Shown here piece by piece: positions 10,070 to 48,427 of a stretch of DNA of 54,129 nucleotides. Each line of letters starts with the position of its first letter. Position 1 is the first letter of the stretch. Source of the stretch: Candidatus Hydrogenedentota bacterium. Lineage in GTDB: Bacteria; Hydrogenedentota; Hydrogenedentia; Hydrogenedentales; JAEUWI01. The translations under genes were made by a program, and so were the position numbers. Where the stretch lies: positions 1 through 54,129 of the forward strand of contig JAEUWI010000050.1 in NCBI GenBank assembly GCA_016791475.1. The letters are read 5' to 3'. The notes below the pieces were generated by a model, which made no database searches, was not told where the DNA came from, and saw only the letters and a list, made by a program, of their open reading frames with translations.

Positions 10070-10173
10070 TAGGTTGACGATAAGAATCAAAAAAATATTT
10101 TATTGTATACAGATAGTAGTCAAATGGTGGCGATGGGCGTATTCTGCTCGGTGAGCAGAGGAGGGGGGAGTTG

Positions 10174-10460
10174 GAACCGCAAATTTACGCAGATTTGCGC
10201 AAATGAAAACCGACGTGGGAGCGGAAACCCATGCGCACGCAAAAGAATGTGAAATGATCGGTATGGGGGAGCGGTAATTAAAGGGGTATCGACCACGGAA
10301 GGGCACGGAACTTCACGGAAGGAGCTTATTCGAGTTCAACATTACCAACGCCCCGAACCCTGCAAACAAAAATCGACCTTTTACAGTCTGAATGAAATTT
10401 GCGAAAATTTGCGGTTCAACGCTTTTGGTTGTGTCCCAAGGTTGCCCCCCTTCCGTGGTC
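10174..10460. repeat. gene-less composite of two inverted dispersed repeats
   Basis: An array of 10-nt units reading GAACCGCAAATTTACGC at 10174-10204 has an inverted partner ending GCGGTTC at 10396-10417. Overlapping it, GACCACGGAAGGG at 10291-10303 has an exact inverted copy at 10448-10460. The first family is the one that brackets the GxxExxY gene at 39210-39869; here there is no gene between the arms. The second family recurs at 106-136. The rest of 9976-10540 holds nothing else I can name. Confidence 0.65.
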
Positions 10461-11982: not shown

Positions 11983-12177
11983 AGTGTGAAGAGTATAGAT
12001 CAACGCCGCGCAAGTTGTGCAATACGCAATATGAACCGAAATCCGCCGCGGTGGATTGACCATTTTCGTTGAGGCAAGAAGTTATTGCGGCTCCAGCACT
12101 GCAATAAGTTTGTAGAATCACCCGGAGCGCATTCACCACACGAATCTGGAGTGCCTGCATTGCACTTGGTCATGCCC

Positions 12178-13036
12178 TGCCTCAACCTGAAAGGTTAAGC
12201 CACTTTCGGTGCACGTTGATGATGGTAATCGCGCAGTGATAATCGGCGAGCGCCTTGCTATACTCACCACGCAAGGAGACCTAGACCGATGGAAAGTTCT
12301 TCTGAAAACGAGGAGCTCAACGAGGTTCCGCATTCGCACTTCCTTCAGCGCGATTCGCCGGTTCAGATTGATCGGCGAAATCTTCCCCACTGGCGCCTCT
12401 CTGGAGTATTCAACTACGTCACCTGGCGCCTTTTTGATTCGTTGCCACAGGAAAAGCTCAACGCATGGCGCACTGAAAAGCATGCGTGGCTTATGCAGCA
12501 CCCGAAACCCTGGAATGCCTCCACTTCCAGCCAATACCGCGATCTGTTTCCAAAGCGACTGGATGGCTGGCTGGATGCGGGCTACGGTGGATGCTATTTG
12601 CGCAGAGCGGAGTGCGCTCAAATCGTCTCGAACGCTTTTCACTTCTTCGATGGCGTTCGCTACGACCTGGCATCTTACGTGGTCATGCCGAACCACGTGC
12701 ATGCGCTATTCCTGCTTCGCGACGGAATGGAACTGGAAAGGGTGACAGGGTCCATCAAGGGATTCACCGCCAGGGAAATCAATAAGGTGCTTGGGCGTAG
12801 CGGCACCCTGTGGCAACACGAAGGATTTGATCATCTCCTGCGTGGCGTACAGCAGCTTGAAGGTTGCCTTACTTACATTCGTAGAAATCCGGAGGATGCC
12901 GGGCTCAAAGCCGGAGAGTTTATCCACTACGAATCTCCCGGCTTCAAGGATTTTGAAAAGTGGCTTTGACCATCGAGTGAGCCTTTTTGCACACTCAATG
13001 TGCACCGAAAGTGGCTTAACCTTTCAGGTTGAGGCA
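12178..13036. mobile_element. RAYT-REP unit with perfect 36-nt terminal inverted repeats
   Basis: The 36 nt at 12178-12213 are the exact reverse complement of 13001-13036, and together they enclose the RAYT gene. Inside each arm, AACCT-gaa-AGGTT can form a 5-bp hairpin, as REP sequences do. Diverged relatives of the arm occur as gene-less inverted pairs at 28515-28672 and 35077-35232. A GTTGAGGCAAGAA fragment also occurs at 12069-12081. Together these look like an autonomous RAYT locus and its non-autonomous offspring. Confidence 0.85.
12289..12969 (+). CDS. REP-associated tyrosine transposase (RAYT, Y1 HUH family)
   Basis: A 226-aa product. The start has AAGGAG 10 nt upstream. Motifs of the Y1_Tnp/IS200-like HUH superfamily are plain: an N-terminal LPHWRLSGVFNYVTWRL strand, the metal-binding HUH motif as MPNHVHAL (H136, H138), and a catalytic Tyr at about Y196 in YIRRNPEDAGL, typical of RAYTs. 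RAYTs are single-copy domesticated transposases that cut and join single-stranded REP hairpins. The gene lies between perfect inverted REPs (12178-12213 and 13001-13036). It appears intact. Confidence 0.92.
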   Translation: MESSSENEELNEVPHSHFLQRDSPVQIDRRNLPHWRLSGVFNYVTWRLFDSLPQEKLNAWRTEKHAWLMQHPKPWNASTSSQYRDLFPKRLDGWLDAGYGGCYLRRAECAQIVSNAFHFFDGVRYDLASYVVMPNHVHALFLLRDGMELERVTGSIKGFTAREINKVLGRSGTLWQHEGFDHLLRGVQQLEGCLTYIRRNPEDAGLKAGEFIHYESPGFKDFEKWL

Positions 13037-22428: not shown

Positions 22429-22466
22429 GAATTCGGCAGTGGGGACCGGTTTGCGCCCCGAAGAAG

Positions 22467-22498
22467 AATTTGCGCTAATTTGCGTAAATTTGCGGTTC
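22467..22498 (+). repeat. solitary copy of the 32-nt array of 10-nt units
   Basis: Three in-phase units (AATTTGCGCT, AATTTGCGTA, AATTTGCGGTTC) match the arms at 39210-39241 and 39838-39869. No inverted partner is seen nearby. Confidence 0.75.
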
Positions 22499-22632
22499 AA
22501 CTCTCTTCGTCGCGACCCTATCCCACGCCAGGACGGTCGGGTCGCCCCTGAAGCCGGGAATTGACAAGCCCCTTCGGCGCCATGCATCATTTTCAGGTCA
22601 GCAAGCCGCAGTACCCGGGGATGTGAGAGCAG

Positions 22633-26807: not shown

Positions 26808-28319
26808 TTACTTCGCGAGCTCTTCCTTCAGCACCTGCTGGTAGCCCGCCAGGTCTTCCAGTCGCAACAGCACCAGCCGGTCGATGCCGAGGGCGCGCAT
26901 GTTTGCCGTGGTGGTGCGGCTGTGGGGTGAGCGAGCGTCCAATCCCTGAAAGGCCAGGGTATGCTTGCCCGCCTTGAGGTTGTGCAGATCCAGGGGCTGC
27001 CACATATAGTCCGCGTTCACGATGGTGAAATCCACGGGCGCGCCGAAGTCCTTGCCGTCGAGCGAGGCCTGGTAGACGCCGCCCATCACCGCTTTGTAGA
27101 CCACGGCGTTGATCTGGTAGCGGCCGTCCTGCGCCACTTCGAAGTCGATCTCCAGTTTTCCGTTGGCCACTGCAGGAATATAGCTGATGCCGTTGCCATT
27201 CGGCACGACGAGCATGGCGGGTGTGGCGCGGTAGGCCAGATCTTTGACGGACAATTCCACATAGGGCGCGATGCGTTTCTCCGCGGGCGGCAGGGATTCA
27301 GCGATTAGCTTCGGCGGATACTGGTACCAGAAGGCCACGGAGCTGACCCAGTCGGGCCGTTCGAAAAACTGGCCCAGGTGGCGGGTCTGGTCCGTGAAAA
27401 CGCTTCCCCGATGCTCGATTTCTACCTTGAGGGATTCCTGGAAGGGAATCGGATCGGGCAGGTGCCACCGGTACGCCGTCACGCGGTCGCCGGGAAACAC
27501 GCCCTCATACAGGCTCACGCCGTGGTAGGGCGTGGAGAACTCCCGGAAGCCCCAGGCGTCGTTGAAATAATCCTCCGTGCCCGTGCCGCGCAACTGGGGC
27601 AATGCCGCGCCATCGATGTAGAAGAAGTCGTCTCCCTCGCCGTACCAGCCGATCTCCACCTGCTGCGCGGAGTGGACCGTGCCCACGTAGTGACCCCGCC
27701 CAGTGGTCTCCAGAATGGTGTAGTTCCCCGGCGCGGCGGGCATCGCCTGCCGGTACTCCGCATGAAAATAGGTCGTGTCCTCCGGCAGGGATTCATGCTT
27801 CTGCCAGTCGAGGTAATAGTAGAAAGAGTCCACCTTCAGCGTGGGGTGGTCGTTGGTGATGGTGACCTTGATGTGCTGGCGGAATGGGATCCGCCAGTAG
27901 CACGCGCGCGAGCGACCATGGGAGGACACCGACGCCACGGCGGAGGTGTAGTCCGCCCCCGCGCCATGGCCCACGCCGAAGAAATCGCCCAGGGGCGCCT
28001 GCACGCTGGGTTGCGCCGCGCCGTCATAGTAGATGCGCAGTACCAGCGAACGCCCGTGAAAGAGATCCTCCGCGCCCACCGTATTCCAGAAATGGGTAAT
28101 GATGCCGGGGCCGTCCTCGTCCATCAGCACCAGCGTCTCCCCCGGGGGAATCGGGCGCGCATCGCCATTCTTCGTCAGGTCCTCATTCGAGCTGCTCGCC
28201 CGCCGCGCTTCAAATTGCTGCTGGCGCGTGAGGGCGTCGAGGAGGGGATCGGCGGCATGCGCGGCGGGTCGGCAAAGAAGGGCAAGTGTTACGGCCGTGG
28301 CCGCCATGAACCATCTCAC
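26808..28319 (-). CDS. secreted GH172/DUF2961 glycosidase
   Basis: A 503-aa product. The GTG at 28319 is chosen because AGGAAG lies 7 nt upstream; it gives a clean signal peptide (WFMAATAVTLALLC... ending AHAAD). An ATG at 28352 is the alternative. The body is the DUF2961 (GH172) jelly-roll: GPGIITHFWNTV, GDFFGVG, the WYGEGDDFFYIDGA segment, and GTGTEDYFNDAWGF, which contains acidic residues conserved in the family. GH172 members cleave or rearrange furanosyl glycans (for example D-arabinan or fructan derivatives). A trailing sandwich domain (GKHTLAFQGLDARS) may bind sugar. Confidence 0.85.
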   Translation of the reverse strand: MRWFMAATAVTLALLCRPAAHAADPLLDALTRQQQFEARRASSSNEDLTKNGDARPIPPGETLVLMDEDGPGIITHFWNTVGAEDLFHGRSLVLRIYYDGAAQPSVQAPLGDFFGVGHGAGADYTSAVASVSSHGRSRACYWRIPFRQHIKVTITNDHPTLKVDSFYYYLDWQKHESLPEDTTYFHAEYRQAMPAAPGNYTILETTGRGHYVGTVHSAQQVEIGWYGEGDDFFYIDGAALPQLRGTGTEDYFNDAWGFREFSTPYHGVSLYEGVFPGDRVTAYRWHLPDPIPFQESLKVEIEHRGSVFTDQTRHLGQFFERPDWVSSVAFWYQYPPKLIAESLPPAEKRIAPYVELSVKDLAYRATPAMLVVPNGNGISYIPAVANGKLEIDFEVAQDGRYQINAVVYKAVMGGVYQASLDGKDFGAPVDFTIVNADYMWQPLDLHNLKAGKHTLAFQGLDARSPHSRTTTANMRALGIDRLVLLRLEDLAGYQQVLKEELAK

Positions 28320-28514
28320 GGGTAGGCTTCCTGTTGGGTGCTGGTTGAACATCTCGATTCATACCATAGCATACACGATGGCGTGGGTCGCAGGGGCGAG
28401 CAGGTGATTCGCTCTTGGACTTTAGTCGCCCGACGGAGACGGGAAGGTGCACATCCGCAATGGCGCCGAGAGTTTTCGGGGCTTGTAAGGGCCCTATAGT
28501 CGCGTACGGCGACC

Positions 28515-28672
28515 GAAGGTGGGTTAAGCTTTCAGGTTGACACAAGATCCACGATGCTATCGGACGGCCCTGCTGAGATTGAAGAATCTATCTTGGGTAA
28601 GCCCCAACTTTCTCGGGCCGTTTTCACGCCAACATGAGCCTTGCGGTCAAGCTGGAAGCTTAACCCACCTTC
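28515..28672. repeat. gene-less inverted REP pair related to the RAYT ends
   Basis: The left arm (28515-28541) and right arm (28646-28672) are inverted 27-nt copies with 2 mismatches. They match the ends of the RAYT unit at about 21 of 27 positions (shared GAA.GTGG.TTAA core). About 100 nt of unrelated sequence lie between the arms. It looks like a non-autonomous REP (BIME-like) derivative. Apart from this and the hairpin at 28769, the gap 28320-28823 holds nothing I can name. Confidence 0.75.
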
Positions 28673-28823: not shown

Positions 28824-29594
28824 TTAGGCTGCGGTGTTCTTGCGGCGACGCAGGATACCCACGAGGCCCATGCCCAGGAAGCCGAGACCGGCGGCGGCGG
28901 GTACGGGGACGACGGCACCGGTGATTTGGACATTCACGTCACTTGATTTGTCCCAACCGCCTCCCGCGGAATTCCAATCGTAGTCCCAAGTGACCGCGCC
29001 ATTGCTGTAGAGGAATCCGCTGAACAAACCATTTGCGCCTTGTTGCGTCGAGCCGCTGAGGGGGGCGTTTGAACTGTGCAAGAACAAGGGTGCGATGAGA
29101 TTACTGCTGGAATCAAGCGCAGCCACCGTGAAGTAGTAGTTGGTGTTGCCGGAAACCGTCAGTCCAAGATTGGTAAAAGTCAACTGGGTAATTGTCAGGA
29201 AACTCCCGCTTGTGCCCTGGTAGTCAAGACCGCCTTGATATTGCACCGTACTTGTGGTCCACGACGTGCTTACGTCGGTAAGCGGCGCGGCAGTACTGGA
29301 GCCGACGTACAATGAGAAATTCGCAGTGGCTTCATCAACGGGATACGTTGTCGAGTTGATATACCATACAGTGAACTCATCAATTGTATAGGCGCTTGTG
29401 CCACTGAGATTGAATGTGTCTCCAACCAGATAAGGATCGACGTCACCCCACGCCACATTGCTTCGATTCGCGCCCGATGCGTTGTTGAGGTTGGCGGTCG
29501 GCAGACCGCGGTCAAAGATGATGGGATCCGCACCGGCAGCCCCTGCCAGTACGACGACCAGGCATGTCATGGTCTTTGCGACTAGGTTCTTCAT
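28824..29594 (-). CDS. secreted protein with PEP-CTERM/VPLPA-CTERM-like sorting signal
   Basis: A 256-aa product. The ATG at 29594 is chosen because GGGAAG lies 11 nt upstream and it starts a signal peptide (MKNLVAKT..., ending AGAAG). The middle is Thr/Ser/Gly-rich, as in exported PEP-CTERM proteins. The extreme C-terminus has the sorting layout: a short Pro-containing motif (VPVPAA), a hydrophobic stretch of about 14 residues and a basic tail (RRRKNTAA). This is the variant seen in VPLPA/PEP-CTERM systems, in which an exosortase-like enzyme moves the protein to the surface. No exosortase gene is in this window. The function is unknown. Confidence 0.8.
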   Translation of the reverse strand: MKNLVAKTMTCLVVVLAGAAGADPIIFDRGLPTANLNNASGANRSNVAWGDVDPYLVGDTFNLSGTSAYTIDEFTVWYINSTTYPVDEATANFSLYVGSSTAAPLTDVSTSWTTSTVQYQGGLDYQGTSGSFLTITQLTFTNLGLTVSGNTNYYFTVAALDSSSNLIAPLFLHSSNAPLSGSTQQGANGLFSGFLYSNGAVTWDYDWNSAGGGWDKSSDVNVQITGAVVPVPAAAGLGFLGMGLVGILRRRKNTAA

Positions 29595-30412
29595 GAGTAA
29601 ATACTTCCCTTGCGTTGTATTTGTCATTCAGTTGGATTGATAGGAACCGGGAGAATAGGGGGACGAATAGCACGTGGGTAATGCTTGGATGACGGTCTCA
29701 TAACCGTTGAGAAAGTTGCCATCGTCCGCTTCCATGAACGGCATACCACGGGCCATAGGTCAGGTACGACTTCCGCTCAACAGCGCCAGCAGTCTCTCCA
29801 GCGGCCTGTTGCCCGCCGCGTTGGAGACTGTCCAGAACCTACCACTGACAGCACGACACGAAGTGGTAAAGCACTATGCGGACATCCGATGCTCTCCGCC
29901 ATATTGCCAAATCCTTTCCCCAAGTCTGGCAAGGTAGTGCGAAGACGGTCCACTCGAAGTAGAGCCAAACGTCGAAAACTCTTGGCCTTCGGCGATAGGG
30001 CCTTTTCATGGGAAAAGAAGAACGACGCGATTGGTTCCCAATATACCGCCCAATCCAGTCCCGATGTTCCCACCTACATCGATTTTCTTCGCACGACTCC
30101 TGAAGCAATGCAAGAATCGCGCCCGAATAGATGCGTTGACCTAAGCACACTAATACAAAACGTTTACGGCCATATGAATCTGCCCGGTATTGCAGGTTTG
30201 ACACAAAAGCGCCACAGAATTTTGTCTTTTTTGACAAATATCTGCCATCCGGTAACTCGTCGATTCGACTTTCGGGGCGCCAGGCTACACACACCCGTGT
30301 GAAACTGGGACCGTACATCGCCGCGGGTGGGGCAGGGAATTCCGTCGTTGGTTTTCTGGTTGTGCTCTCGTATACTCCTCTGAACAATCTCACCTGGAAG
30401 GAGTGCAGCACC
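29595..30412. other. 818-bp gap without supported gene
   Basis: Open frames here (for example 29685-30302, and 29839-30414 on the minus strand) overlap each other, lack a ribosome site and have odd Arg/Pro-rich or low-quality products, so none is called. Promoter-like AT-rich sequence lies at 30190-30245. I see no repeat in it. Confidence 0.5.
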
Positions 30413-33199: not shown

Positions 33200-33251
33200 C
33201 AGTAACGGGCCAGGAAACAATCGAAGTCAACGCTGGGGCTTACCCCCCCTA

Positions 33252-33318
33252 CCCCCCCGCAAGCGGGGGGGACCTGACTCATGGAGCAGTCTTGTTGGTT
33301 CCCCCCGCTTGCGGGGGG
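33252..33318. repeat. G/C-tract double hairpin after the fusion gene
   Basis: Two short palindromes, CCCCCCCGC-aa-GCGGGGGGG at 33252-33271 and CCCCCCGC-tt-GCGGGGGG at 33301-33318, are inverted copies of each other, flanked by further C and G runs (for example GGGGGGGGGC and AGGGGGGA). They could act as terminators, and the G-runs could form a quadruplex. Confidence 0.7.
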
Positions 33319-33408
33319 GGGCAGGGGGGAGGACCTGTAACGATTTTCATCATCTAGGTTTGAGGGGATGCCTCATGATGGACTGCTCTGAAAACTGGAG
33401 AGAGACTC

Positions 33409-35031
33409 ATGAATGCAAGATTTCAGTATTTGTCGGGTGTGCTTTCGCTCCTGTTCACTGGCGCAGGATCCGTCTTCGCCGATCCAGGCTGTCTTCCGAC
33501 GATTTCAAGCATGAATTTCAACGTTGTCGATGGAGTATCCGCAGAGGCCATCCCAAACGGCCAGTGGCGGCTCTCGGGGACGCTCGACGTCACCTTCAGT
33601 GGCCGAATAGCGCCCCATGAAAACACCTCGGTACAGGTCTTCGGGGCCGGTGTCGAGGCCTTGGAAGGCAGATTCGATTCTGTGAAACTTCCCGAGAATT
33701 GGCTCTGCGATACGGTCTATGACGACGCAGCCCACACCCTCACACTCGGCAACTTTCACCCCGACCGGGCTCCCGCCTTCCCCACGGCGGAGGGCTTCGG
33801 CAAGTATGCCATCGGCGGCCGCGGCGGGCGGGTGATTGAAGTCACCAACCTCAACGACAGCGGGCTGGGCAGCTTTCGTGCGGCCTGCGAGGCGGAGGGA
33901 CCGCGCACGGTCGTGTTTCGCGTGTCGGGCACCATTGCGCTGGAGTCGGAACTGGAAATCGAGCACCCCTACATCACCATCGCGGGCCAGACCGCGCCGG
34001 GCGACGGCATCTGCGTGAAGAACTATCAGGTGAAGGTGGAGGCGGACCATGTGATCATCCGCTACATGCGCTTTCGTCCGGGCGACGAGCGGGGTGTGGA
34101 GCAGGACACATTCAGTGGCGAGGGCGATCACATCGTTATTGATCACTGCTCGGTGAGCTGGGGCGTGGACGAGACCCTGTCCTTCAACAAAGCATCCAAC
34201 CTCAGCGTTCAGTGGTGCCTCGTGAGCGAAAGTCTCTATCGCTCGGTTCATAAGAAGGGCGACCACGGCTACGGCGGACTCTGGGGCGGCCCCGGCGGCT
34301 CCTTTCACCACAATGCGCTTGTACATCACAGCAGCCGCAATCCCCGCGCGTCGGGCAACAAGGAATCGGGGCTGCTGGACTTTCGCAACAACGTGGTTTA
34401 CAACTGGGGTTTTAATAGCGCCTACGGCGGGGAATTGTGGCCGCGCAACTGGGTAAACAACTACTACAAGCCCGGTCCCGCCACGCGCGACAGTGTGAAG
34501 CGGCGGATATTCCTGCAAAAGGCCAAAGAGGGAAAAATGTACCTCGCCGGCACCCACATGGATGGCTATCCCGAGGTGACCGCCGACAACTGGGGCAAGG
34601 GCGTGGACTATGCGGAAGACGGCGAGGCGACAGAGGCAACCTTGCGCGTGGACAGCGAGTTTATCGTCGCGCCGGTCACGACCGATACGGCGGAGGTGGC
34701 TTTCGAGCGCGTGCTGGCCGGCGTGGGTGCGTCGCTCGTGCGCGATTCGGTGGACACCCGGATTATCGAGGAAATACGCACGGGCACCGCGAAGTACGGC
34801 AAAAGCTTCGAGGGCGGCGGCAACGGCATCATCGATTCCCAGAAGGATGTGGGCGGCTGGCCGGAACTGAAATCCGAACCTGCGCCTGAAGATGGCGACC
34901 ACGACGGGATGCCGGATACCTGGGAGAAAGACAAGGGCTTGAATCCGGCGGATGGGGCCGATGGCAACGCCGACCGCGACGGCGACGGCTACACCAATCT
35001 GGAAGAGTATTTGAACTCGTTGGCGCCGTGA
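33409..35031 (+). CDS. secreted pectate lyase-like polysaccharide lyase with C-terminal calcium-binding repeat
   Basis: A 540-aa product with GGAGAG 6 nt before the ATG and a signal peptide ending VFADP. The middle is a parallel beta-helix of the pectate lyase type: FGKYAIGGRGGRVIEVTNLND, RVSGTI, YITIAGQTAPG, HVIIRYMRFRPGD, and DHIVIDHCSVSWGVDETLSF (the calcium-binding signature), then FRNNVVYNWG. The last ~45 residues form a TSP3/dockerin-like calcium loop block (DGDHDGMPDTWEKD, DRDGDGYTNLEEY). It probably cleaves pectin-type uronate polysaccharides outside the cell, in keeping with the GH106 and GH172 genes. Catalytic residues were not assigned. Confidence 0.88.
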   Translation: MNARFQYLSGVLSLLFTGAGSVFADPGCLPTISSMNFNVVDGVSAEAIPNGQWRLSGTLDVTFSGRIAPHENTSVQVFGAGVEALEGRFDSVKLPENWLCDTVYDDAAHTLTLGNFHPDRAPAFPTAEGFGKYAIGGRGGRVIEVTNLNDSGLGSFRAACEAEGPRTVVFRVSGTIALESELEIEHPYITIAGQTAPGDGICVKNYQVKVEADHVIIRYMRFRPGDERGVEQDTFSGEGDHIVIDHCSVSWGVDETLSFNKASNLSVQWCLVSESLYRSVHKKGDHGYGGLWGGPGGSFHHNALVHHSSRNPRASGNKESGLLDFRNNVVYNWGFNSAYGGELWPRNWVNNYYKPGPATRDSVKRRIFLQKAKEGKMYLAGTHMDGYPEVTADNWGKGVDYAEDGEATEATLRVDSEFIVAPVTTDTAEVAFERVLAGVGASLVRDSVDTRIIEEIRTGTAKYGKSFEGGGNGIIDSQKDVGGWPELKSEPAPEDGDHDGMPDTWEKDKGLNPADGADGNADRDGDGYTNLEEYLNSLAP

Positions 35032-35076: not shown

Positions 35077-35232
35077 GAAGGTGGGTCAAGCTTCCAGCTT
35101 GACGCACAGCCTGCTTCAATCGCCGACGTGTCCATTGATTCGTTCACGCTCCTGGAGTCTCATATACATACAGCCGTGCCTTTTTGGGCGATACGTGTGC
35201 CTTTCGTCAAGCTGGAAGCTTAACCCACCTTC
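35077..35232. repeat. second gene-less inverted REP pair
   Basis: Arms 35077-35103 and 35206-35232 are inverted 27-nt copies with 1 mismatch; each contains the hairpin AAGCT-tcc-AGCTT. The sequence flanking the left arm (CTTCAATCGCC at ~35114) also occurs just outside the right RAYT end (~13047), so homology extends beyond the arm. The remaining gap 35233-35616 holds only the terminator below. Confidence 0.75.
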
Positions 35233-35562
35233 CGCGCCGCGCGATTTTTTGGAGGGCTTCACAGGATTCCAGTGACCCGGGCTGAGCGACTTGTTGGTTT
35301 GCGCGCGCATCGAGTTTCGAGTCTGAATGGGGCCGTCGAGTTTCCGACGGACTGCGGAGTGAACGCCACCTCGGGCACACGAACCGGCGTTGCCGGATCG
35401 CGTGGCACAACGCAAGGAGGCCAATGGGGTGTGAGATGAACGGCCTTCACCAACGTCTCTTCACCCACAAACTCCGTCGCAAGCTCCTCCGTGTGTGGGT
35501 CTCGGACGCGCCGTGGCGGGTGTCACCCGTGGAAAACCTTACTGCTCCTCCTGAAATGCAGA

Positions 35563-39196: not shown

Positions 39197-39209
39197 GAAA
39201 AACGGAACT

Positions 39210-39869
39210 GAACCGCAAATTTACGCAAATTTACGCAAATTATTTCTGCGACGTCGAATTATTCGCGTCAGAGCGTGGTCACGATCTAAAGTTGATGCCT
39301 GTAATACATCCTTCCGTTCGACATGAGTGTTTCTGACAGGGCCTGCGCACAGGCGATACGAAACAGACTTGAAGCGAGGGTTTGATATGGGAGAGGAGCG
39401 GAACGGGGCGAACGACTGGGTCGAGAACGACCTCGTTTACCAGATCATTGGTGCTGCCATGGCCGTGAGTACGGGCGTCAAGCATGGCCTGCGAGAAAAA
39501 ACATACGAGCGGGCCCTTATAGTGGAGTTGCAGCACCGGGGATTGAGGTGCGCAACTCAGCAACCTTATCCAGTCTACTACCGGGGTGAAAAGATCGACG
39601 ACTACATTCCAGACCTTGTAGTCGAAGGGCGGGTAATCGTTGAGACTAAGGTCGCCGAGAAGATAATTGACGATCACATAGGGCAGGTTCTCAACTACCT
39701 CAAAATCAGCGGGTTGGAAGTGGGCATAATACTTAATTTTCGCTACGCCAGCCTACAGCACAAGAAGGTAGTCTATCAGCCCAACCGGCAACGTTGACTA
39801 ATGCGAAGTGCAGAGCGCCCGAGTTTCATGCTATTCAAATTTGCGTTAATTTGCGAAAATTTGCGGTTC
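39210..39869. mobile_element. putative element: GxxExxY gene between inverted 32-nt arrays
   Basis: Left arm 39210-39241 (GAACCGC then AAATTTACGC units) and right arm 39838-39869 are inverted copies with 2 mismatches in 32 nt. Each is three in-phase 10-nt units. They enclose only the GxxExxY gene and its 145-nt leader. A gene-less composite pair (10174-10417), a solo copy (22467-22498) and a fragment (200-226) also occur, consistent with a mobile or amplified unit. No transposase is inside. Confidence 0.6.
39387..39797 (+). CDS. GxxExxY family protein
   Basis: A 136-aa product. The ATG at 39387 has GAGGG 7 nt upstream. The family motif G-x-x-E-x-x-Y is exact (G34, E37, Y40 in GLREKTYERAL). 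The rest matches the GxxExxY/PF13366 domain: an N-terminal IIGAAM helix, DDYIPDLVV, then VIVETKVAEKI, which has the D...E-x-K order of PD-(D/E)XK nucleases, and HIGQVLNYL. The function is unknown; a nuclease is suspected. The gene is flanked by near-perfect inverted 32-nt arrays. Confidence 0.9.
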   Translation: MGEERNGANDWVENDLVYQIIGAAMAVSTGVKHGLREKTYERALIVELQHRGLRCATQQPYPVYYRGEKIDDYIPDLVVEGRVIVETKVAEKIIDDHIGQVLNYLKISGLEVGIILNFRYASLQHKKVVYQPNRQR

Positions 39870-40000
39870 CTCCCTCTTTCCCCTTCCCCTCCCCATTGGC
39901 ACGGGCGTCTTTCGCGTGTTAAGCTGTTCTCACCGAAGCAGTTCACCGCGTCCCCATTTGCTATTCCGAATTCACTATTCACCATTCCCCGGAGGGGCTG

Positions 40001-48256: not shown

Positions 48257-48340
48257 GGATTGCCCCCGTGTTGGTGGAGTTGACTGGAGATCAGGCTACA
48301 CCCGTCGGAAGAATTTGGCAAGGAATATTTTGGACGAAAT

Positions 48341-48427
48341 GGACAGGGTGGACAGGGTGGACAGGGTGGACAGGGTGGACAGGGTGGACTTGGTCCACTT
48401 GGTCCACTTGGTCCACTTGGTCCACTT
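48341..48427. repeat. tandem 9-nt arrays forming a long hairpin
   Basis: Five GGACAGGGT units (48341-48385), then GGACTT, then four GGTCCACTT units (48392-48427). The GGAC and GTCC parts of the two arrays are complementary, giving a long imperfect stem. The second array is also the inverted counterpart of the 47602-47626 array across the four-helix gene. Confidence 0.8.

Follow-up and report, generated by a model that had tools for sequence, protein, structure and literature searches.

Introduction

Among described transposases, the closest counterpart of the enzyme treated here is TnpAREP of Escherichia coli (PDB 4er8; RAYT group 2, subclass 2.2), a REP-associated tyrosine transposase (RAYT) whose repetitive extragenic palindromes (REPs) are hairpins with a GTAG tag (PMC8266576). 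The contacts to GTAG lie in strand β1 and around strand β4 (PMC8266576), and H101 has been named among the residues that meet the tag; the passages of PMC6006769 that treat it describe it as sometimes Arg and link it to no tag. Enzyme–REP recognition has been tested for three enzymes (PMC8266576). Here, we describe a RAYT and its REPs from a 54,129-nucleotide stretch of DNA (the window), contig JAEUWI010000050.1 (C50) of the 7.7-Mb genome of a Candidatus Hydrogenedentota bacterium (G000), and report that one residue of this enzyme family is matched to one base of the tag.

The window RAYT shares with TnpAREP the HUH-Y1 core, the WQ and YI..NP motifs and a tagged hairpin; the equivalents of Q95, H101 and R104 are kept, and in E. 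coli, too, the His goes with a GT tag (GTAG). Unlike TnpAREP, the window RAYT carries more than 100 residues ahead of the HUH motif, and its REP has an 8-bp stem without a bulge, whereas the E. coli stem is longer and its bulge is required (PMC8266576). A second counterpart is TnpAREP subclass 2.7, which is alike in length (about 213 residues), in the NHVH, WQ and YI..NP motifs, and in its GT[AG]G REPs; this likeness rests on the description of the subclass and not on its profiles (PMC6006769). That description places subclass 2.7 in Cyanobacteria and a few other phyla and gives GT[AG]G only, while the loci studied here also carry GG[AG][GT]. Inverted REP doublets (REPINs) with less conserved spacers are known from Pseudomonas fluorescens SBW25 (PMC3116915); in the present family, the two arms commonly differ from each other, and what is kept is the local hairpin. 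The GTAG repeats of Opitutus terrae and other bacteria likewise include GTGG-tagged hairpins, head-to-head dimers, heterodimers and variable spacers, and the parts of that report bearing on them link no enzyme residue to the tag (PMC3733652).

The window holds an ordinary RAYT/REP system in a little-studied phylum; out of the ordinary are the strand-specific, locally paired hairpin, the largely free identity of its pairs and the match of one residue to one base. Natural variation separates these parts, with the tag matched to the enzyme, the stem pairs free to vary provided that pairing is kept, and one strand folding. The matter bears on how a RAYT tells its own REPs from those of other families in the same genome and, if the residue-to-base rule is true, tags would be predictable from protein sequence in genomes without experiments.

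Residue 182 and the Second Base of the Tag

Across 60 loci, distances between RAYTs correlate with distances between their REPs (Mantel r 0.381, p 0.0002), and the correlation holds for both stem and tag. By mutual information, the alignment column most informative about tag base 2 is column 182, which lies one residue after a conserved Asp and aligns with H101 of E. coli (the aligned segment WQPRFWEHAIR has His at this position). The resulting rule, His182 with GT[AG]G and Arg or Thr182 with GG[AG][GT], is obeyed by 59 of these 60 discovery loci: His182 is found in 31 of 32 GT-tagged loci, and Arg or Thr in all 28 GG-tagged ones. Beside these RAYTs, GG-tagged REPs are about as common as GT[AG]G (29 versus 33 loci). 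The rule was first spotted by eye in an alignment of 20 proteins, most of which are among the discovery loci. Two further loci with hairpins, L098 and L099, were left out of the 60 for a short or distant query match; L098 has Lys at position 182 and the tag GGGG.

A held-out set of 31 new loci yielded 12 with tagged hairpins, of which 11 follow the rule. This set is not wholly independent, as L288 is 83% identical to L228; L290, on the same contig as L228, was not used. A tree of 72 RAYTs was then built without column 182. On this tree, tag base 2 changes 7 times, the residue 7 times and the two jointly only 8 times, compared with a mean of 24.1 when the tag is shuffled. One switch falls inside the window's own clade, where C50, C9 and G002:C606 are His/GT and the sister group of C89, G003:C279, G002:C452 and G005:C59 is Arg or Thr/GG. 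A survey that accepted any tag (159 loci, 101 with families) shares loci with the other sets and is no independent test, and its families are often shifted by one base or read from the opposite strand. Where its consensus tag starts with G (identity at least 0.85), His occurs with GT 14 times and with GG never, and Arg or Thr with GG 26 times and with GT once. An additional tag, GGAA, stands next to Arg- or Thr-type RAYTs (L124 and others), outside the tag pattern used.

In the structural model of the window RAYT, residue 182 is placed within strand 180–183, in line with the β4 contacts of the E. coli enzyme. Judged from these sequence comparisons, it is likely that one RAYT residue (182; E. 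coli 101) reads tag base 2, with repeated switches between His/GT and Arg-or-Thr/GG and the REPs following. Literature searches, which included passages of PMC6006769, found this residue-to-tag rule nowhere in print.

A Locally Paired Hairpin That Folds on One Strand

In full, the REP is a GTGG tag followed by a stem of 8 bp closed by a loop of 3 nt, longer than the AACCT-AGGTT hairpin proposed in an earlier note on this DNA. With the tag and some bases fixed and complementarity left free, a pattern search gives 69 exact matches in the G000 genome and none when the pattern is read backward, so the family is not a product of chance. In these 69 REPs, 551 of 552 stem pairs form, and the lone exception is the window copy at 28519. 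Pair identity varies nonetheless: pair 1 is G-C in 50 copies and C-G in 19, pair 5 G-C in 53 and A-T in 16, pair 6 G-C in 48 and C-G in 20, and pair 8 takes all four Watson-Crick forms. The earlier note had proposed that a single pair was swapped on both sides in the diverged window copies. The swap is there, and the closing pair is exchanged from C-G to G-C in the same copies. The stem states read off the individual arms stand (Table 1); the arms at 35077–35232 agree on the AGCTTGAC side, while the left one has an extra T to C change at pair 3.

Covariation was examined in 45 distinct REPs from four genomes. Two-sided changes occur at six of the eight pairs, with 96.4% of pairs formed, so that the single compensatory pair noted earlier is one case of a real and general pattern. 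The covariation score is 0.536 against 0.190 in shuffles and at most 0.079 in slid controls, two-sided cells number 67 against 24.5 in shuffles, and none of 500 shuffles reached the observed pairing or the observed covariation. Pairing at five of the eight pairs entered the score by which partner arms for these and the REPIN counts were found, which tilts the percentage paired somewhat upward; pair 2 gained no score for pairing. From this compensation it follows that pairing is kept. That the enzyme reads the covarying pairs, as the earlier note had suggested, does not follow; the best enzyme–DNA link found is the one proposed between residue 182 and tag base 2.

REPINs allow a further comparison, between their arms. 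Across four genomes, 60 REPINs were counted, with unlike arms in 46; a count in G000 gave 32, mostly of 132–150 nt. Arms differ at 83 pair positions, at 70 of which both are locally paired; where the difference is two-sided, pairing is kept in 50 of 50 cases. With each distinct arm type taken once (29 unlike types), both arms are paired at 42 of 54 differing positions. Since the arms differ from each other and each stays paired, the local hairpin is the conserved unit. Most REPINs of G003, for example, join a GTTAGCCT or GTTAGGCG arm to a GATAGGCT or GATAGCCG arm, each of them intact.

The hairpin is also strand-specific, as a single-stranded DNA substrate would be expected to be. The GTGG strand folds 8 bp and its complement 5 bp, because a T.G pair becomes A.C when read from the opposite strand. 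Pair 3 is T.G in 144 of 152 GTGG-family matches in which that pair was left free and Watson-Crick in three. More generally, 62 of 128 RAYT loci yield tagged inverted hairpins, compared with 2 when sequences are reversed, and one-sided states at pairs 2–8 on the tag strand are G.T in 70 cells (26 loci) versus A.C in 7 (6 loci). The closing pair shows the opposite bias (A.C in 19 cells, G.T in 5); these counts are set aside because the stem edge is uncertain there. A universal T.G at pair 3 was considered and rejected, as 20 of 47 GG-family matches in G002 have C-G. A guanine on the 3′ side of pair 3, found in only 37 of 62 loci, would, judged from pairs whose numbers sum to 39, correspond to G32 of E. 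coli if GTAG is numbered 1–4; the argument does not lean on it.

Proposed Mechanism and Alternative Explanations

Very probably, the window RAYT works on its own REP/REPIN family by binding REPs folded as single-stranded DNA with the stem paired and the tag read through residue 182. By analogy with TnpAREP, the enzyme would bind the GTGG strand of the folded REP and cut nearby. It would need the paired 8-bp stem and tolerate most pair identities, which would let stem pairs change by compensation, as the retained pairing and the covariation show. The tag would be read directly, with residue 182, in the β4-equivalent strand, setting base 2; the association of His182 with T and of Arg or Thr with G is observed, and a direct contact would account for it. 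RAYT and REP diverge together, and the RAYT may mobilize the REPINs.

Several points weigh against this account. The sisters L271 and L312 carry Arg182 with GTAG, and two more columns, 36 and 189, vary with the tag. Residue 36 lies just before strand 41–48 and is Arg in L271, L312 and many GT loci; from the alignment, it may be a second tag determinant. No tagged inverted hairpin emerged at 66 of the 128 RAYT loci, so the test of the rule covers only loci with recognizable REPs. Cognate RAYT–REP pairs were assigned by proximity, and the FastTree topology carries no support values. GG-tagged families do not share the retention of the pair-3 wobble. Covariation could have been spread in part by conversion between REPs and not by repeated double mutation. 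An element tree of G001, without support values and made from 26 of 29 copies (three unalignable ones were left out), suggests five changes at pair 6. Spacers are similar only among REPIN copies of one contig, except for two weak pairs, so dispersal of whole REPINs must be old or rare; REPIN spacers have been described as highly diverse (PMC8049555). Finally, G001 and G003 have no cognate RAYT for their 29 and 21 REPs of the family, and the RAYT homologues that they do have stand beside other REPs or none.

The match between residue 182 and tag base 2 might reflect common ancestry instead of contact, given that related RAYTs have both in common and that two other columns follow the tag as well. 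We regard this as unlikely, since seven tag and seven residue changes coincide in only eight joint ones, one switch occurs within the window's clade, and tag base 3, with 11 changes, has no column comparable to 182. Template-switch (quasipalindrome) correction could restore perfect stems without any selection for recognition; it yields two-sided changes from a single mutation, and single intermediates exist (the copy at 28519, and C.C in 3 of the 26 G001 tree elements). The frequent C-G at pair 3 of GG-tagged families would suit it, too. Such correction should, however, make the pair-3 T.G Watson-Crick, against the retention described above, and it gives no reason to expect more G.T than A.C, which leaves it decidedly improbable.

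It is less probable still that selection acts on the long hairpin that the arms of a REPIN form with each other: arm-to-arm differences affect 133 of 960 cells and local breaks 13 of 960, and in 12 of the 14 G003 REPINs the arms differ at pair 2, mostly at pair 6 as well. Most improbable is that the hairpins are kept as RNA structures, such as terminators or mRNA ends, and are associated with RAYTs only by history. The stems could fold as RNA with G.U tolerated, RNA-level roles of REPs have been published (PMC3733652), and G001 and G003 keep hairpins without a cognate RAYT. Both REPIN arms nevertheless obey the G.T bias on opposite strands, and one transcript would carry A.C in one of them, so that single-stranded DNA, and not a transcript, can be what the arms have in common as a cause. 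The co-divergence of RAYT and REP also speaks against an RNA role, and at gathering thresholds the window has no match to any Rfam family.

The Transposase Gene and Its Repeats

Assignment of the window RAYT rests on several lines. Pfam Y1_Tnp matches at 28.8 bits (cut-off 23), and N135, H136, H138 and Y196 are invariant in 12 of 12 aligned RAYTs, which gives a Y1 HUH core with the HUH motif and one catalytic Tyr. By profile search, the closest protein is 4er8 (E 1.2e-6). The AlphaFold2 model (predicted local distance difference test score 82.4) finds the same structure first and as its sole match below E 0.001 (E 9.5e-6), and VIA-align superposes the two with Z 13.5 and a root-mean-square deviation of 3.6 over 140 residues. 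tRNA-His guanylyltransferases and viral Rep domains follow at lower Z, matches that are read as a common fold only. NCBIfam NF047646 (REP_Tyr_transpos) scores 56.7 bits (E 2.4e-15), under its curated cut-off of 80 bits; by sequence, the enzyme is a relative of this naming model's equivalog set and outside it.

Inverted tagged REPs flank the gene and are also found at other places in the genome. The gene is single-copy there, and its next homologue is 59% identical. An IS200/IS605 insertion sequence was thus rejected, near-identical copies of the whole element being absent. Searching the genome contigs with the single protein found no relative, whereas an alignment query did. The genome holds 14 Y1 transposase genes (L031–L044), most with their own distinct flanking inverted repeats and some with two hairpins per arm. 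Several RAYT copies in G002 are broken or incomplete (L113, L117, L119), and three plasmid records contain distant relatives.

The flanking repeats at 12178–12213 and 13001–13036 are exact inverses, as first noticed, and extend to 42 nt at 98% identity. The inner REPs do enclose the gene, with their tags pointing toward it; the left one also pairs outward with a decayed REP and so belongs to a REPIN, and the full REPIN-RAYT-REPIN arrangement is frequent in related RAYTs. Two further pairs in the window are likewise inverted REPs with tags outside and a short spacer (Table 1). Both are extragenic: the one at 28519–28668 lies between open reading frames (ORFs) 26808–28352 and 28824–29627, and the one at 35081–35228 between ORF 33409–35031 and position 35491 or 35617.

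Table 1. Features of the window; REPs are written as tag, stem side, loop, stem side, or by the two stem sides.
Feature	Position	Strand	Details
RAYT, 226 residues, Y1 HUH transposase	12289..12969	+	H136, H138, Y196, tag-linked H182; Pfam, alignment, model
Codon of His182, associated with tag base 2	12832..12834	+	Numbering from 12289
Inner left REP	12181..12203	-	GTGG CTTAACCT TTC AGGTTGAG
Inner right REP	13011..13033	+	Identical to inner left REP
Decayed outer REP of left REPIN	12051..12073	+	GTGG ATTGACCA TTT TCGTTGAG
REP, REPIN left arm	28519..28541	+	Intermediate, GTTAAGCT/AGGTTGAC; G.G mismatch at pair 6
REP, REPIN right arm	28646..28668	-	GTTAAGCT/AGCTTGAC
REP, REPIN left arm	35081..35103	+	GTCAAGCT/AGCTTGAC; pair 3 is C-G
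REP, REPIN right arm	35206..35228	-	GTTAAGCT/AGCTTGAC
Second dispersed repeat, copies	199-239, 10173-10204, 10386-10426, 22464-22507, 39209-39244, 39830-39878		

Distribution and Other Repeats

A REP family common in genomes that lack this RAYT had been named as a finding that would count against the earlier reading, and G001 and G003 go part of the way toward it. Among 40 genomes, 6 have matches; the family is nonetheless confined to the genus, being absent outside it except for one match each in 2 of 36 genomes. REPs without a cognate RAYT have been reported elsewhere as possible RAYT loss (PMC3686654). Stem breakage as a consequence of losing the cognate RAYT was considered and rejected; broken stems number 5 of 29 in G001 and 1 of 67 in G000, but 0 of 21 in G003, which also lacks a cognate enzyme. 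In G001, the REPs sit singly inside a longer repeated element of about 175 nt (L140–L165), whose inner sequence is conserved, unlike that of the G000 REPINs.

The window contains a second dispersed repeat, made of AATTTGCG units with GCGGTTC ends in both orientations; a similar string, TTCGCG, terminates several of the G001 elements. Other repeats are a tandem 9-nt repeat, TGGACAGGG, at 48322–48402 and a GC-rich long inverted repeat at 33236–33335, with 39-nt arms and 22 nt between them.
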